The position numbers and the translations under genes were made by a program. From NCBI GenBank assembly GCA_026388655.1, contig JAPLJI010000142.1, forward strand, positions 1 to 33,527: a DNA stretch of 33,527 nucleotides, given 5' to 3'. Below, in pieces: positions 7,128-31,730 of the stretch. Under the pieces are notes generated by a model, which saw only the letters and a program-made list of their open reading frames with translations, did not search any database and had not been told where the DNA came from. This DNA comes from Pseudomonadota bacterium. GTDB lineage: Bacteria; Desulfobacterota; JAPLJL01. Each line of letters begins with the position of its first letter. The first letter of the stretch is position 1.

Positions 7128-7188
7128 ACTATGTTCGACTGATAGCTAACGGCTAATGTACTGCGTTGTAAATTCCTTTACCCTGGTT

Positions 7189-7253
7189 GTCATTCCGGGC
7201 TTGACCCGGAATCCAGGTTTTTTATCATGGATTCCCGCTTTCGCGGGAATGAC
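7189..7253. repeat. GTCATTCC palindromic repeat, copy 2
   Basis: Ends GTCATTCCGGG and CGCGGGAATGAC. Similarity to the copy at 26298-26362 extends about 30 bp further left (TGCGTNNTAAATT...CTTGGTT type sequence), making a shared unit of about 95 bp. Confidence 0.8.
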
Positions 7254-8108: not shown

Positions 8109-8176
8109 GTCATTCCGCACTTGATGCGGAATCCAGTTTTTTTGTTTTTCTGGATCCCCGCTTTCGCGGGGATGAC
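8109..8176. repeat. GTCATTCC palindromic repeat, copy 3
   Basis: Same layout as copy 1 (GTCATTCCGCACTTGATGCG...CGCGGGGATGAC), including the conserved left flank from about 8077. It is directly followed by a GTAGGGGC element. Confidence 0.8.
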
Positions 8177-11682: not shown

Positions 11683-11717
11683 AATCGTAAATCGTAAATC
11701 GTCAATCGTAAATTGAA
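11683..11717. repeat. Period-7 array (AATCGTA type)
   Basis: AATCGTA, AATCGTA, AATCGTC, AATCGTA, AATTGAA. This is the reverse complement of the array at 11483-11503, so the two form inverted ends of a 235-bp intergenic block. Confidence 0.8.
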
Positions 11718-13089: not shown

Positions 13090-14199
13090 CTACTGTTTGA
13101 CCAGCCAATCCAAGACCAAGGGAAAGATTTCCTCGAGGGCGGTTTCCCCCATCAGAAGATCGATATGTCCGTAATCCCGCTGGAAACCATTGCCCCGGCC
13201 TGCCACCACCATTTTCTTCCGGGGTGAGGAGACCCCGTTGTAAACCTCGAGAACACTGGCGGGTGAGACCAGGTTATCGAGAGACCCGGCGATGAGCAGG
13301 ATCGGGTTTTTTATCCTGGCTAAATTAGCGGAGTAATCGTAATTGCCGGCGTGAGCGGCGAAGCTTTCGTCTTTGAGCGCGTTGGAAAACTGCAGGAGAA
13401 GTTTGGCGGGCAGGTTTTCCACCGCCAGCGGGGCAAGATGGCGGACAAAATTTCGGTCCAAATTGTCCTGGTTGTATTGGATGATGCTGAAAGTGGAGCC
13501 GAACTCCATATTAAAGAGAAGGAAAACCTTGATTAATTGCTTGACCGGGACCCGGTTAAAAATTTTCAGCAGGAAGGTTAATTTCTCCTGCGAAGCCAGG
13601 ATGTCATTGGGAATGCGAAACGATACCGGGGAGGCCACCGCCACCCCCCGGCGGATCAGACGGGCGTCTCCTCTCTCCAGGTAGGCGTAAAGTTCCATCC
13701 CCCCCATGCTGTGTCCGACCCAGTCAAGCTGGCGGGCCTTGGTTTCGGACTTGACCTTTTCCAAAATGGCCGGGATATCGGTGAGGATGAAATCCTCAAA
13801 GGACCAGAGGTAATCGGCTTTTTTTCCGTCAGCCCGGCGGGAAAGCCCCATGCCCCGGCATTCGCCGATCCAGACATCCAGCCCATTATGCGCCAGGAAA
13901 CGGGCCATGCTGTGGCGGTCGTCGCTTTCGAAGTTATAGCGGTTGGCCCCCAGGCCGTTGAACATGACCACCGGCACGCTGTTTTCCCGCAAAGGCTCGG
14001 GTTTATAACGGTGAACCGCCAATTCCCAGCCATCCTGGGTCGCGGCCCAGTAAACGGTGGGGGAGGCCGGGATCTCCGCGGAATGGACGGGAAAACAAGT
14101 GAGAAGTAAAAAGTTAGAAGTAAAAAGTAAAAGCTTAAACAGGGTCTTAACTCTTCTTTTCATTTTGCTTACGTTGTTGTGTTTAAAGCTATCCGCCAT
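13090..14199 (-). CDS. Exported alpha/beta hydrolase
   Basis: The frame encodes 369 residues from the ATG at 14199. The hydrolase triad is visible: S164 in GHSMGG, D308 in AGSLDNLV and H345 in YGHIDLL. NGLGANR (81-87) is the oxyanion region, and the early GECRGMGLS matches lipase-like and polyhydroxyalkanoate-related hydrolases. The N-terminus is a signal peptide: KRR, then a hydrophobic core (residues 22-36), then a VHSA cleavage site near 41. That core is encoded by a period-7 array. The ATG at 14199 overlaps the upstream stop codon by 11 bp; an ATG at residue 13 (MKRRVK) would give a more typical signal peptide. The substrate is unknown. Confidence 0.82.
   Translation of the reverse strand: MADSFKHNNVSKMKRRVKTLFKLLLFTSNFLLLTCFPVHSAEIPASPTVYWAATQDGWELAVHRYKPEPLRENSVPVVMFNGLGANRYNFESDDRHSMARFLAHNGLDVWIGECRGMGLSRRADGKKADYLWSFEDFILTDIPAILEKVKSETKARQLDWVGHSMGGMELYAYLERGDARLIRRGVAVASPVSFRIPNDILASQEKLTFLLKIFNRVPVKQLIKVFLLFNMEFGSTFSIIQYNQDNLDRNFVRHLAPLAVENLPAKLLLQFSNALKDESFAAHAGNYDYSANLARIKNPILLIAGSLDNLVSPASVLEVYNGVSSPRKKMVVAGRGNGFQRDYGHIDLLMGETALEEIFPLVLDWLVKQ
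14096..14133. repeat. Period-7 array inside a signal peptide
   Basis: On the plus strand: CAAGTGA, GAAGTAA, AAAGTTA, GAAGTAA, AAAGTAA, AAG. Read on the minus strand in frame it encodes LLLFTSN then FLLLTCF, a seven-residue echo of the 7-bp period. Confidence 0.8.
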
Positions 14200-14452
14200 G
14201 GGTTATTAACTGCTCGCCAGTTACCGCCAGCCTTCCAGCTTCCGATTGCGCGAAAGTCGGGATCGGGCCCTTAGCCAGGTAACGAACCTTCCGGCGGAGA
14301 AACTTGTCGTCCTGGCTCTCCTCGAGGATTTCCCGCTCCTGGATATTGGGAAGGGATTTGACGATCCGGACGATTACCTCCGGGTCCGACCAGATTTCAT
14401 TGAGCTGGTCCGGGTCAATTCCGGAAAATTGCTGGAAGATATGGATCTTCAT
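14189..14452 (-). CDS. START/SRPBCC-like protein, apparently truncated
   Basis: The 87-residue product begins MKIHIFQQFSGIDPDQLNEIW and continues through EREILEESQDDKFLRRKVRYLAKGPIP. This resembles the first half of DUF2505-like START-fold proteins, which are usually about 150-180 residues. The similarity stops after about residue 65, and the frame ends at a TAG that overlaps the ATG of the hydrolase gene. I infer loss of the C-terminal half, perhaps when the hydrolase gene came to lie beside it. AAGGAGAACACTC before the ATG is an excellent ribosome-binding site, so the gene may still be translated. The family call is from pattern memory and is tentative. Confidence 0.55.
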   Translation of the reverse strand: MKIHIFQQFSGIDPDQLNEIWSDPEVIVRIVKSLPNIQEREILEESQDDKFLRRKVRYLAKGPIPTFAQSEAGRLAVTGEQLITHGG

Positions 14453-14700
14453 GAGTGTTCTCCTTGATGCTTCGACGACACCCCCGCCCCGCCCTGGAGG
14501 CGGGGTTCACCCTAAAGGGGATTCACCCTGAAGGAAAAAAAGCGACACTCAATATGGCTTCAACTGAGCTCAGCCGAATGTCCAACCCTGAGCATACCCC
14601 GGATTTCAGATCGGGGAAGTCGAAGGATTGATATAAAATTGGCCGAAAAATCGCTACAATTATAATACCTTTCTCGTAAGGAGAACATCGTTCACGAAAG
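14453..14700. other. Intergenic region with promoter
   Basis: This stretch holds a GGGGTTCACCCT-type repeat near 14510, a fragment of the widespread CTGAGC...GTCGAAGG repeat (14591-14627), and a promoter. TTGGCC at 14639-14644 is separated by 16 bp from a perfect TATAAT at 14661-14666. AAGGAGAAC follows at about 14679, but no ATG, GTG or TTG stands at the right distance, so it may be the promoter of a decayed gene. Confidence 0.45.
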
Positions 14701-14714
14701 GATAGAAAGTTCGG

Positions 14715-15061
14715 GTGGAAAACCGTAGAAGATACATTAAAACGGCCCTGATCGTTTGCGCAGTTCTCTCACATTTTTCCTGCCCGGGCGGGAAATCTTA
14801 TCAAGCCGGACGGGCGGGAGACAGCATCTTCCTCCACCTGATCAACTATAACTATTCCCGAGGTCGGGGTTTGCCCCGCAGGAAGGGATCAACATTTCCC
14901 TGCGTTTGCCCGCGGGGTTTGTCACCACCGGCAAGAAACTCGAATGGCGGGAGCCGGGGAGCCCAGGGGGTGAACTTAACTTCAGCCTGGAAGGGGGAAG
15001 ACTCAAATTCGCTCTTCCCATCATCCGCGAATATTGCCTGGTGGTGTTTGCGCCGCAGTGA
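14715..15061 (+). pseudogene. Frameshifted remnant, glycosidase-like C-terminal domain
   Basis: Two frames join into one sensible sequence. From 14715 one frame reads ...GDSIFLHLINYNYS up to about 14858. From about 14861 another frame reads SGFAPQEGINISLRLPAGF and runs to ...REYCLVVFAPQ with a stop at 15059-15061. The combined pattern (HLxNY, then alternating beta strands ending in YxLVVF) is like the C-terminal beta-sandwich of some glycoside hydrolases. A one-base insertion or two-base deletion at 14856-14864 explains the shift. The catalytic part is absent, so this is a fragment as well as frameshifted. A sequencing error at that point cannot be excluded. The family call is weak. Confidence 0.5.
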
Positions 15062-15127
15062 GGAGCCGTTTCCGGCCCGGGCGTTACTCCTGGACTTTCT
15101 TCTCTCCCGGGAAGCAAAGCCTTATAA

Positions 15128-15156
15128 TTGACACCGGGAAGCTAAAGTAATAATTT
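15128..15156 (+). promoter_or_regulatory. Probable promoter of glyQ
   Basis: A perfect TTGACA at 15128-15133 is followed by an AT-rich -10 region (TAATAATTT, 15148-15156). No hexamer matches well at the ideal distance, so the exact -10 box is unclear. The leader to the ATG at 15186 contains AAGGGG. Confidence 0.45.
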
Positions 15157-16370: not shown

Positions 16371-17426
16371 TCAGCCAGCTTTTTTGATCTTCCCCGCCCG
16401 GGCCCGGGCCAGTTCGCAGGATGGCCGGTAGGGCTTGGCGATCTCGTTCGACAAGGTCAGGGACATCCCCGGGCAGAGAGAACAGAATCCCAGGTAACGG
16501 CAGGAAAGACACTCCGGAACCCGCGCCATCGTCATTTTCCTGAGCTCCTGGAGCACCGGGGATTTCCTCCAGATTTCCGCGAATTTCTTTTTTCTCAAGT
16601 CGCCGGCTTGACGGCGGATCTGAACGCAGGGATAAACCTTGCCGTCGGGAGAAATCGCCAGGGAGTTTCTTCCGGCCGCGCAGATCGGATCTGCGGGTCG
16701 GCGGTCGGGATTGGGGGTAAGGTCCGGGCAGGATTCGGAATCGTTTTCCCGGGACAATCCGGCCCGGATCTCCCGGGTTTTGAGCTGAAGTTTTAAAGGG
16801 GCGGGGTTGCCATCGTCGCGGGGGGAAAGGACGTAGGAAAATTGAATGAGAACGTCCAGATCCCGGGCCAAGTCCCGCAATGGCTTGATCTCTTTTTGAT
16901 TAAGCGTCATCACCGGGGTTTTTAAATTAACCTTGATGCCTTCATTTTTGAGAAGCCGGATAGCTTTCCAGGTGAGCTCGAATGAACCTTCCATTCCGGT
17001 GATCAGGTCGTGAATATTGGGGTTAGCGGCATAAACGCTGATTTCGACTTCGAAGGGGTTCAGGCGGGAAAGTTTTTTAACGGTTTCCCTGGTGATCAGT
17101 GTCCCGTTGGTAAAAATGCGAAAGGCGAAGCGTTGTTCCCGGGCGATTTTGAGCAGTTCCAGGAAGTTTGGATAGAGCAGGGTTTCTCCACCGGTAAAGG
17201 TTAAAAAAAGCGTTCCGGATTCCGCCAGCTGGGTAAAAATATTTGCCCATTGCTTCAGGGTGAGTGAGGATTTTGGGGAAAAGGATTTTGGGTGGAGTTG
17301 GGCGGGCAGTATGTAGCAATGCCGGCAGGATAGATTGCATCGGTAGGTCAGCTCAATTAATGCCGAGATGGGGGTCAGCCGCAGCGCGGCCTTGTTCATT
17401 ATCTTTTCGTAACCGGGCATGATCAA
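16371..17426 (-). CDS. Radical SAM/SPASM protein, PqqE-like
   Basis: The frame gives up to 351 residues. The radical SAM cluster motif is YRCNLSCRHCY with C30, C34 and C37, and FTGGETLLYP is the SAM-binding GGE motif. A SPASM domain follows: PICAAGRNSLAISPDG, VYPCVQI, then CLSCRYLGFCSLCPG. This matches enzymes that modify ribosomal peptides with a PqqD-like partner, and such a partner is encoded just upstream at 17579-17878. Possible starts are TTG 17426, ATG 17420 (MPGYEK) and ATG 17399 or so (MNKAAL); none has a strong ribosome-binding site. A heptamer array covers the start region (17425-17453). The peptide substrate is not identified. Confidence 0.85.
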   Translation of the reverse strand: MIMPGYEKIMNKAALRLTPISALIELTYRCNLSCRHCYILPAQLHPKSFSPKSSLTLKQWANIFTQLAESGTLFLTFTGGETLLYPNFLELLKIAREQRFAFRIFTNGTLITRETVKKLSRLNPFEVEISVYAANPNIHDLITGMEGSFELTWKAIRLLKNEGIKVNLKTPVMTLNQKEIKPLRDLARDLDVLIQFSYVLSPRDDGNPAPLKLQLKTREIRAGLSRENDSESCPDLTPNPDRRPADPICAAGRNSLAISPDGKVYPCVQIRRQAGDLRKKKFAEIWRKSPVLQELRKMTMARVPECLSCRYLGFCSLCPGMSLTLSNEIAKPYRPSCELARARAGKIKKAG

Positions 17427-17453
17427 AGTGAAAAGTGAAAAGTTAGAAAAAAG
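17425..17453. repeat. Period-7 array (AAAGTGA type)
   Basis: AAAGTGA, AAAGTGA, AAAGTTA, GAAAAAA. It is the same family as the array inside the hydrolase signal peptide at 14096 and lies at the 5' end of the radical SAM gene. Confidence 0.7.
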
Positions 17454-21774: not shown

Positions 21775-22153
21775 AATTGACGATTTACGATTGACGATTT
21801 ATGAGTGAAAACCAAAGATTATGCTAAAATTCAAAGCTCCCATATCAAATCAAGCTTAAACCCGAAAAATGCGATTGAATCCATTCCTTTGTCATCCGCA
21901 GGCGGATTTTTTTGTAGTCTGCCGATTCACTTGTCCCTTCGCTGAGGGGATCGGCGGTTTTCAAAAGCGCCCGATAAATCGGGCAACTACAAAACATCAG
22001 GTAATAACAACTGTATTTTCCGGCTTAAAGTTTGTTTGCTAAAAGTCTTGGATTTAAATTTTGAATTTGGTGCAATCGTCAATCGTCAATCGTAAATCGT
22101 CAATCGGCAGGTGGCGGGATTGAGCCCGCGTTTGTTGTTATAATTCAAAAGTT
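21775..22153. repeat. Repeat-filled gap before cobA-hemD
   Basis: About 380 bp without a gene. ATTGACG, ATTTACG, ATTGACG, ATTTATG (21776-21803) starts just after the dehydrogenase stop. The inverted partner AATCGTC, AATCGTC, AATCGTA, AATCGTC, AATCGGC is at 22074-22108. Between them are a terminator (21894-21913) and a GTAGT..GCCGATT element with right end CGGGCAACTAC (21914-21990). Confidence 0.8.
21894..21913 (+). terminator. Short hairpin with T-tract
   Basis: ATCCG CAGG CGGAT is followed by a run of seven T. It would end transcripts from the alcohol dehydrogenase gene about 120 bp after its stop. The stem is only 5 bp, so its strength is doubtful. Confidence 0.45.
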
Positions 22154-23733: not shown

Positions 23734-23758
23734 ATAAAACCAAGAACACAAAATTATT

Positions 23759-23826
23759 GTCATTCCGCACTTGATGCGGAATCCAGTTGTTTTGCTTTTC
23801 TGGATTCCTGCTTTCGCAGGAATGAC
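23759..23826. repeat. GTCATTCC palindromic repeat, copy 5
   Basis: Ends GTCATTCCGCACTTGATGCG and CGCAGGAATGAC, lying between cobA-hemD and ahbC. Confidence 0.8.
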
Positions 23827-23918
23827 GATAGACAACATAAAAATCTTTTTGATTTAGATAACTCTCGGTTTTGCCGCGGGGAGAATCATCTTTGGATTTT
23901 GAACTTGGAGACTTTTAA

Positions 23919-25082
23919 ATGATTAACCTGAGCCGGCTTTTATTTGACTATGAAACCGAAGGGGACCGCCTCCGCTACCGGAGCGATCCGAAAAAAGCCA
24001 GACCCATCGTGGTCTGGAATATCACCCGCCGCTGTAATTTAAAGTGCCGGCACTGCTATTCCGACTCTAAAAACCGGTTTTACCCCGGGGAGGTGAAAAC
24101 CGAGGAAGCCCGGCGGATTCTGGAGGATCTCGCGGATTATAAAATCCCGGTTGTGCTCTTCTCGGGGGGGGAGCCGTTGCTGCGACCGGATATTCTGGAG
24201 CTGGTTGCCCGGGCCCGGGACTTGGGGATCAGGCCGGTATTGTCCACCAACGGGACCCTGATTAATCAAAAAACCGCCCGGGAGCTGAAAAAAGCGGGCC
24301 TGGCTTATGCCGGGGTCAGCCTGGATGGGATCGGGGAAAGGAATGACTTTTTCCGCGGGGTTTCCGGGGCATATATAAGGACCTTGAAGGGAATCCGAAA
24401 CTCGCAGGACGCCGGCATAAAAACCGGGCTGAGATTTACCATCACCCGCCTGAATATGGGAGAGATCCCCGGGATTTATAATCTTTTAAAGAAAGAAGAA
24501 ATCGTGCGGGCCTGTTTTTATCACCTGGTTTGCACCGGCCGGGGGAGTAATCTCCTCGATGTGAATTTAACCCCCTGGGAGACCCGGCAGATCATGGACA
24601 CCATCATTTCCCTTTCCGGGGAGCTTTTCTGGGAGGGGAGAAAAATGGAAATTCTCACCGTCGACAATCATGCCGACGGCCCTTATCTTTTTCTCCATGT
24701 TAAAAAACGCGATCCGGTCAGGGCCAGAAAAATATTTTCGCTTCTGAAAATGAACCGGGGCAACCGTTCCGGGATCGGGATTGCCGGGATGGACTGGAAC
24801 GGCCAAATCAGCCCGGACCAGTTCTGGCAGAGCCGGGTCCTGGGAGATATTCACCGGAAGGGTTTTGCCGAAATCTGGGGAAACCCCAAAAATCCGACCC
24901 TCAAGCGGTTAAGGGAATACCCGCGGCGAATCAAGGGAAGATGCGGAAAGTGCCGGTTCCTGGAAATCTGCAACGGGAATTTCCGGGCCCGGGCGGAGAC
25001 GATTTTGAATGATCCCTGGGCCTCCGACCCGGCGTGTTACTTGAGCGATGAGGAAATAGGTTTAGTGAAAAGTAAAAAGTGA
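23919..25082 (+). CDS. ahbC: 12,18-didecarboxysiroheme deacetylase (radical SAM)
   Basis: This 387-residue radical SAM/SPASM protein matches AhbC and its relative NirJ. The cluster motif is TRRCNLKCRHCY with C39, C43 and C46, and FSGGEPLLRPD follows. Diagnostic later stretches are TVDNHADGPYL (248-257), MDWNGQISPDQFW (291-303) and GRCGKCRFLEICNGNFRARAE (340-360). The final C342, C345, C351 and C373 would hold an auxiliary cluster. AhbC removes two acetate side chains from 12,18-didecarboxysiroheme to give Fe-coproporphyrin III. Context with ahbD and a siroheme decarboxylase favours AhbC over NirJ. The last codons (VKSKK and the TGA) are encoded by a period-7 array. GGAG lies before the ATG. 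Confidence 0.9.
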   Translation: MINLSRLLFDYETEGDRLRYRSDPKKARPIVVWNITRRCNLKCRHCYSDSKNRFYPGEVKTEEARRILEDLADYKIPVVLFSGGEPLLRPDILELVARARDLGIRPVLSTNGTLINQKTARELKKAGLAYAGVSLDGIGERNDFFRGVSGAYIRTLKGIRNSQDAGIKTGLRFTITRLNMGEIPGIYNLLKKEEIVRACFYHLVCTGRGSNLLDVNLTPWETRQIMDTIISLSGELFWEGRKMEILTVDNHADGPYLFLHVKKRDPVRARKIFSLLKMNRGNRSGIGIAGMDWNGQISPDQFWQSRVLGDIHRKGFAEIWGNPKNPTLKRLREYPRRIKGRCGKCRFLEICNGNFRARAETILNDPWASDPACYLSDEEIGLVKSKK

Positions 25083-25112
25083 AGATGCCGGGGTTCAAAG
25101 TTCAAGGTTCAG
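25064..25112. repeat. Period-7 arrays across the ahbC stop codon
   Basis: AGTGAAA, AGTAAAA, AGTGAAG (25064-25084) contains the ahbC stop codon (25080-25082). GGTTCAA, AGTTCAA, GGTTCAG (25092-25112) follows. Confidence 0.75.
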
Positions 25113-26164: not shown

Positions 26165-26297
26165 GGAAACAATCCAAAGCAACCGTTTTTTTAAAGCGGA
26201 TCAAATTCGGATTGCCATCGATCGATAATCCAACAATAAGCACTTAAATCAGAAATCCATACTAGTGTATTGCGTCATAAATTTCTTTAGCTTGGTT

Positions 26298-26362
26298 GTC
26301 ATTCCGGGCTTGACCCGGAATCCAGGGTTTTTATCATGGATTCCCGCTTTCGCGGGAATGAC
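26298..26362. repeat. GTCATTCC palindromic repeat, copy 6
   Basis: Ends GTCATTCCGGG and CGCGGGAATGAC. Nearly identical to 7189-7253 and sharing its left flank. Confidence 0.8.
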
Positions 26363-26415
26363 GGCCAGAAATTCATATAAAGAAGCATTAGGCGCATATT
26401 ATTAATTAGAAATTT

Positions 26416-31400: not shown

Positions 31401-31730
31401 TCAGGTGGTAGCCGCAGCCTTTAGGTTGCGTAGTTCAAAAGAATTGACGATTGACGAGTGACGAGTGACGAGTGACGAGTGAAAACCTAAGAAGAATTGA
31501 CGAATAACAAATGAAAGCAAAAGCAAATTATTAATTGCAGATTATGTTTGTTGAATATTTAAATCGTAAATCGTAAATCGTAAATGATCATGGACTAGAC
31601 AGACCAAATAGACCAGATAGATCAAAGAAACCAGAATGTAGGGCAAGGCTTCAGCCTTGCGTCCGAAAAGAGGGGTTCGAGGGTTGGAGATGAACCACGA
31701 TGACCGAACAAATCAAATAAACCATATGTG
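31401..31730. repeat. Repeat-filled gap before the kelch gene
   Basis: A GTAGCCGCAGCCTTTAGGTT hairpin is at 31408-31430. TTGACGA, TTGACGA, GTGACGA (three times) is at 31444-31478, and the inverted AATCGTA array (three units) at 31562-31582. AGACCAAAT/AGACCAGAT units of 9 bp lie near 31600-31630. A GGCAAGGCTTCAGCCTTGCG hairpin is near 31641-31662. No gene is seen. The layout repeats that of 11483-11717. Confidence 0.75.

Follow-up and report, generated by a model that had tools for sequence, protein, structure and literature searches.

Did a noncoding tandem repeat become part of an exported protein, and if so, did it bring export to that protein or take the place of an older signal? The question is raised by a stretch of 33,527 nucleotides (hereafter the window), part of a draft metagenome assembly from an uncultured bacterium, in which the N-terminus of an alpha/beta hydrolase gene (72.9 bits against Pfam Abhydrolase_1; gathering cut-off 25.8) contains a short array of seven-base units (Table 1). 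A sequence-only reading had named four such units and proposed that a noncoding repeat was captured as coding sequence and gave the hydrolase its export signal. The four units are present, at 14103–14130, and a fifth, degenerate one extends the array, which reads CAAGTGA GAAGTAA AAAGTTA GAAGTAA AAAGTAA on the plus strand. TRF scores it at 44 and 57 (periods 7 and 14), and within 14097–14132 there are 23 of 29 matches at lag 7 and 19 of 22 at lag 14, compared with at most 14 matches at the other lags from 3 to 15. The period-7 score of the signal-peptide region was reached in none of 20,000 codon permutations; the presence of a period-7 array in the core of this signal peptide is not a matter of chance.

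Table 1. Coordinates of the hydrolase locus and of related arrays in the window.
Feature	Position	Strand	Basis and remarks
Alpha/beta hydrolase CDS	13090–14199	minus	Pfam Abhydrolase_1, E = 4e-20; longest start ATG 14199
Five-unit degenerate heptamer array	14096–14130	RAAGTNA-like on plus, YTYTNAC on minus; coding on minus	Sequence, TRF, lag matches
Predicted Sec signal peptide MKRRVKTLFKLLLFTSNFLLLTCFPVHSA	14080–14163	minus	Internal ATG 14163; boundary agrees with sister orthologue
Segment without detectable homology to the colinear sister contig	14085–14249		165 bp in the window, 466 bp in G002
Truncated upstream gene, 87 aa	14189–14452	minus	G002 counterpart 184 aa
Intergenic copy of the hydrolase array family	17425–17453		Abuts start (5') of minus-strand gene 16371–17420; TRF, pattern match
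Array-family copy forming C-terminus and stop	25062–25084		CDS 23919–25082 (radical-SAM-like, ending VKSKK-stop); runs into spacer

Read on the minus strand, the array gives LLLFTSNFLLLT(C), within ...MKRRVKTLFKLLLFTSNFLLLTCFPVHSAEIP, and forms nearly the whole hydrophobic core of the predicted signal peptide, as had been proposed, encoding about 12 of its 14 residues. From the longest start, the N-terminus of the open reading frame is MADSFKHNNVSKMKRRVKTLFKLLLFTSNFLLLTCFPVHSAEIPASP; from the internal Met, it is MKRRVKTLFK / LLLFTSNFLLLTCF / PVHSA, that is, a charged n-region, a hydrophobic core, and small residues at -3 and -1. Judged by the encoded residues, the internal ATG gives a more typical putative signal-peptide layout than the ATG at 14199, and by inspection neither start has a clear ribosome-binding site. 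The home-made, rule-based finder used for all signal-peptide calls in this study assigns a signal peptide to this N-terminus; cleavage is predicted near VHS/A or VHSA/EIP, and export and cleavage of the hydrolase are predictions of the same kind. A lipoprotein signal was rejected by inspection, as there is no lipobox and LLTC would place Thr at -1.

The hydrolase array belongs to a family that is spread through the genome of the window (G000). Its tandem units match AAGTNAR / YTYTNAC and are included in the genome-wide match list; three consecutive AAGTNAR units occur 27 times in the 3.56-Mb genome and never in a reversed control, and the broader pattern of three YTYTNAC units occurs 74 times versus 0 in the control. 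Tandem repeats in 611 kb of the genome are dominated by a period of seven bases or a multiple of it: 74 arrays have period 7 and 51 have period 14, and a Markov-shuffled copy of the same 611 kb has no period-7 arrays. With genes called by a home-made dicodon caller, 122 of the 140 heptamer arrays in an 874-kb sample, partly picked around known arrays, are intergenic, 11 are C-terminal, 4 N-terminal, and 3 internal. A 1.2-Mb sample from a sister species (G002) has 188 arrays, which are divided similarly (168, 13, 4, and 3). The hydrolase array is thus an exception among mainly intergenic arrays. Two further copies in the window had also been taken to be intergenic, which is correct for the first (17425–17453) and mostly incorrect for the second (25064–25084), as this consists largely of the last codons and stop of a radical-SAM-like gene (Table 1). 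Lysine-rich gene ends derived from arrays are common (e.g., VKSEK-stop and KVKSKK-stop), and other heptamers give GQSA-stop (L121 12117–12584, L124 6653–7333, L125 10823–11917, and others). Arrays of other units (TGACGAG, CAATCGT, and AATCGTA) lie at gene borders within the window (31445–31482, 22073–22106, and 11683–11713).

A first comparison had suggested that the arrays are nearly confined to the genus; we rejected this, as the broader YTYTNAC-type pattern was found in 108 of 395 genomes of the phylum, and near-restriction to the genus therefore holds for one unit type alone. Several of these genomes (G123, G341, G252, G253, G161, G172, and others) have about 40 to 190 matches each to three YTYTNAC units, and the preferred heptamers seem to vary between them. 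One locus per genome was inspected there for arrays in signal peptides, and no clear case was seen.

Because seven is not a multiple of three, a stop-free seven-base unit encodes one and the same cyclic peptide of seven residues, whichever of the three frames is read. TTTTTAC is read as FLLFTFY, CTTTCAC as LSPFTFH, TGCGCTT as CALRFAL, and TGCTCTA as CSMLYAL, and the opposite strands of these four units encode hydrophilic peptides with lysine or arginine, in most cases with a stop every 21 bases. In the array family found in the hydrolase gene, the T-rich strand is hydrophobic and stop-free, whereas stops recur at 21-base intervals on the A-rich strand. From these readings, arrays with a T-rich sense strand are expected at the N-termini of exported proteins and those with an A-rich sense strand as short C-terminal tails, a placement that agrees with the arrays observed.

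Across the three genomes of the genus (G000, G002, and a third, G001) and the collections searched, the hydrolase has one close orthologue, in G002 (80% identity). The signal peptide of this protein, LIKTARIIILSAFLFLPFIFSSAYSAEIPASP, has different residues and no array (lag-7 score of 4, versus 14 in the window), yet it has the same length, from a common (V/I)KT to a common SAEIPASP cleavage site. The sequence-only reading had expected relatives to have an unrelated signal peptide or none, and the nearest relative indeed has an unrelated core; the opposite pattern, in which the hydrophobic residues would be shared but the repeat absent, does not occur in the one close orthologue that these collections contain.

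The window is colinear with a G002 contig (C16) across nearly all genes to about 24.9 kb. Around the hydrolase, DNA homology extends over 13093–14084 and 14250–14468; the gap begins exactly at the signal-peptide boundary, and homology restarts inside a DUF2505-like upstream gene, whose 184-aa product in G002 is a near-full-length match to DUF2505, just below the cut-off. Within the intervening segment lie the array, the start codon(s), the signal peptide, and the point at which the truncated upstream gene now ends (Table 1), and the alignment of the 165-bp and 466-bp intervals is not significant (best local score 22, shuffles up to 26). Signal-peptide divergence is common in this species pair: the DNA identity of 0.60 for the hydrolase is the eighth lowest of 41 hydrophobic N-termini, and homology is lost inside or beyond the signal peptide in 6 of 24 signal-peptide pairs. 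We therefore rejected divergence alone as proof of replacement, and the case for replacement is built on the points at which homology breaks off and on the truncation of the neighbouring gene.

Other differences between the two contigs lie nearby. At 14469–14788, the window has 320 bp where G002 has about 1.7 kb, and most of a divergent lipoprotein-like gene, which encodes at least 276 aa in G002, is gone: only some 33 residues from its N-terminus, up to CPGGKSYQAGR, can be aligned, and a remnant ORF lies at 14715–15131 on the plus strand. A dispersed repeat of about 67 bp has four copies in the window (7187–7253, 8109–8176, 23751–23830, and 26296–26363), all of which are 81%–91% identical to a single stretch of the sister contig (L056 18105–18180).

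We think that array-bearing DNA probably replaced an older signal peptide of the hydrolase through rearrangement, the array being usable in any frame. Between its genes, the genus has many degenerate heptamer arrays that change fast; on the lineage leading to the window, a rearrangement would have deleted the end of the DUF2505-like gene together with the old signal peptide, and would have left array-bearing DNA joined to the codon at which the mature hydrolase begins. In whatever phase it is fused, a T-rich array could provide the hydrophobic core, which would make it easy to rebuild a signal peptide that had been lost. One rearrangement is the simplest reading of truncation and signal loss together, although we infer both its direction and its being a single event; with one close orthologue, and hence two genomes compared, there are too few sequences to show that the array-free state came first or to fix the direction. 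Gradual drift with local slippage may have acted instead of replacement, given the rank of the 0.60 identity and the six pairs that lose homology.

A related alternative is that the old, T-rich signal-peptide DNA grew into heptamers by slippage in place and that the neighbour was truncated in a separate event. The G002 signal peptide is likewise T-rich, of equal length, and has (V/I)KT in the matching place, and passages of two papers tie heptamers to slippage (PMC4679880, PMC4692102). We nevertheless regard growth in place as unlikely: the two signal peptides do not align beyond the level of shuffled sequences, the units agree with the genome-wide consensus of the family, and a single interval lies between the two breaks, one at the edge of the signal peptide and the other within the neighbouring gene.

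Very unlikely, in our view, is the idea that the array newly supplied an export signal to a formerly cytoplasmic protein. It has on its side a core that is encoded by the array and an array family that is mostly intergenic, but the array-free orthologue has a signal peptide at the matching boundary, and an N-terminal hydrophobic segment is present in several more distant homologues (L103–L107), so the array is unlikely to have introduced export or membrane attachment. The proposal that the array gave the hydrolase its export signal is thus not supported. Capture of a noncoding repeat as coding sequence is upheld, in that an overwhelmingly intergenic family forms the core and recurs in this way elsewhere, though as a replacement and not as the origin of export.

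Four further signal peptides in the genome of the window are built from heptamers. These belong to a FadL-type porin (CTTTCAC units, leader LLLLFFTFHLSPFTYKSFA), a FadL paralogue (FFLFTFHLSPFTSAVWA), a lipocalin-like protein (FLLTFHLSPLTFNLAKA), and a binding protein (TGCGCTT units, ...FALCAPRFAICVLLLALCALPLAPGFAGA) that we take from its sequence to be TupA-like, with Pfam giving only a PBP superfamily domain. The FadL array is common to all three species of the genus and therefore predates their split or was exchanged. The lipocalin-like protein has a CTTTCAC array in G000 and a TGCTCTA-type array in G002; in the TupA-like protein of G002, a CTTTCAC array adjoins the mature part, and a TGCGCTT array lies further upstream in the same open frame. 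As in the hydrolase pair, homology restarts near the start of the mature protein in the TupA-like and lipocalin-like pairs. In three other genera, the signal peptides of TupA-like orthologues are ordinary and score 2–3 at lag 7. In the two genomes together, a lag-7 score of at least 10 is reached by 8 of 325 predicted signal peptides, where codon permutation gives an expectation of about 0.08, and by 5 of 1,180 non-signal N-termini (Fisher p = 0.002); these five include the FadL leader, which the signal-peptide rule had missed. Lags that are not multiples of 3 or 7 give 0–1 cases at a score of 10. Heptamer arrays have repeatedly become the cores of predicted export signals in this genus, apparently replacing older ones.

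Across the three species, the array-containing FadL leader (-200 to 0 relative to the mature start; L220, L221, and L222) is 93%–99% identical in DNA, compared with 70%–78% for the adjoining mature gene between G000 and the others; further in, G001 and G002 are alike. This looks like selection on the leader or recombination. Such conservation would also be expected if arrays were kept in leaders for a role in DNA or RNA (e.g., protein binding or translation control) with coding as a by-product, and regulatory functions have been proposed for heptamers of other bacteria, in passages of two reports (PMC4679880, PMC2700814). We consider such a role highly improbable as an explanation for the arrays in leaders, given that two orthologue pairs have different units at the same position, with hydrophobicity preserved, as would be expected if selection acted on the peptide and not on a particular DNA motif. 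There is next to no prospect that a T-rich Leu/Phe/Thr/Ser core only looks periodic, for all that signal-peptide cores are T-rich and of low complexity, in view of the codon permutations, the 8 observed versus about 0.08 expected cases, and the near-absence of cases at other lags.

Among the heptanucleotide repeats of bacteria are the STRR-type repeats of cyanobacteria. Others are TAACTGA in Beggiatoaceae (PMC4679880), GGGNATC in Xanthomonas and Nostoc (PMC4692102), and the heptamers of Geobacter (PMC2700814); passages of the first two reports cover the abundance of such repeats, the suggestion that polymerase slippage is linked to them, and the way in which stop codons restrict their overlap with gene ends, with gene-end overlap and stop-limited translation discussed for TAACTGA (PMC4679880). 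To the extent that these passages describe them, the known heptamers resemble ours in being short arrays of seven-base units, mainly intergenic and variable between relatives; they differ in that here the unit is degenerate, many unit families occur together, and arrays recurrently form signal-peptide cores.

Rickettsia palindromic elements are dispersed, palindromic, and inserted at many protein positions in coding genes; there, too, dispersed repeats become parts of proteins, whereas ours are tandem heptamers at N- and C-termini. Heptamers involved in phase variation are near-perfect repeats that switch expression. As in the part of the literature that covers, e.g., Haemophilus HMW1A (PMC8262952), seven-base tandem repeats here affect surface or exported proteins, but ours are degenerate, short, and inside coding sequence. 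Near-perfect units, in numbers that vary between strains and so shift the frame, mark phase-variable repeats; the hydrolase array has degenerate units and was looked at in one strain. In yeast, thymine-rich non-genic DNA can readily encode de novo transmembrane segments (PMC7005711), which likewise makes T-rich noncoding DNA a ready source of membrane-entering segments; in yeast the outcome is a new gene, whereas here a bacterial gene that already existed has gained a tandem repeat or had part of its sequence exchanged for one. We found no earlier description of heptamer arrays as signal-peptide cores in the open-access papers searched.

To our knowledge, the natural origin of new signal peptides is poorly documented. 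Here the source DNA is still recognisable, and sister species' versions of the same protein carry different array-derived signals. We give an even chance to the broader idea that the genus has in its arrays a permanent, frame-independent supply of signal peptides, in which captured arrays wear down to ordinary signal peptides and are exchanged for arrays of other units, so that the turnover of intergenic repeats would drive signal-peptide turnover. That a seven-base unit reads alike in three frames explains why such repeats would be so easily used. The finding offers a concrete, testable path from a noncoding repeat to a working protein part and may help to explain why signal peptides diverge abruptly.
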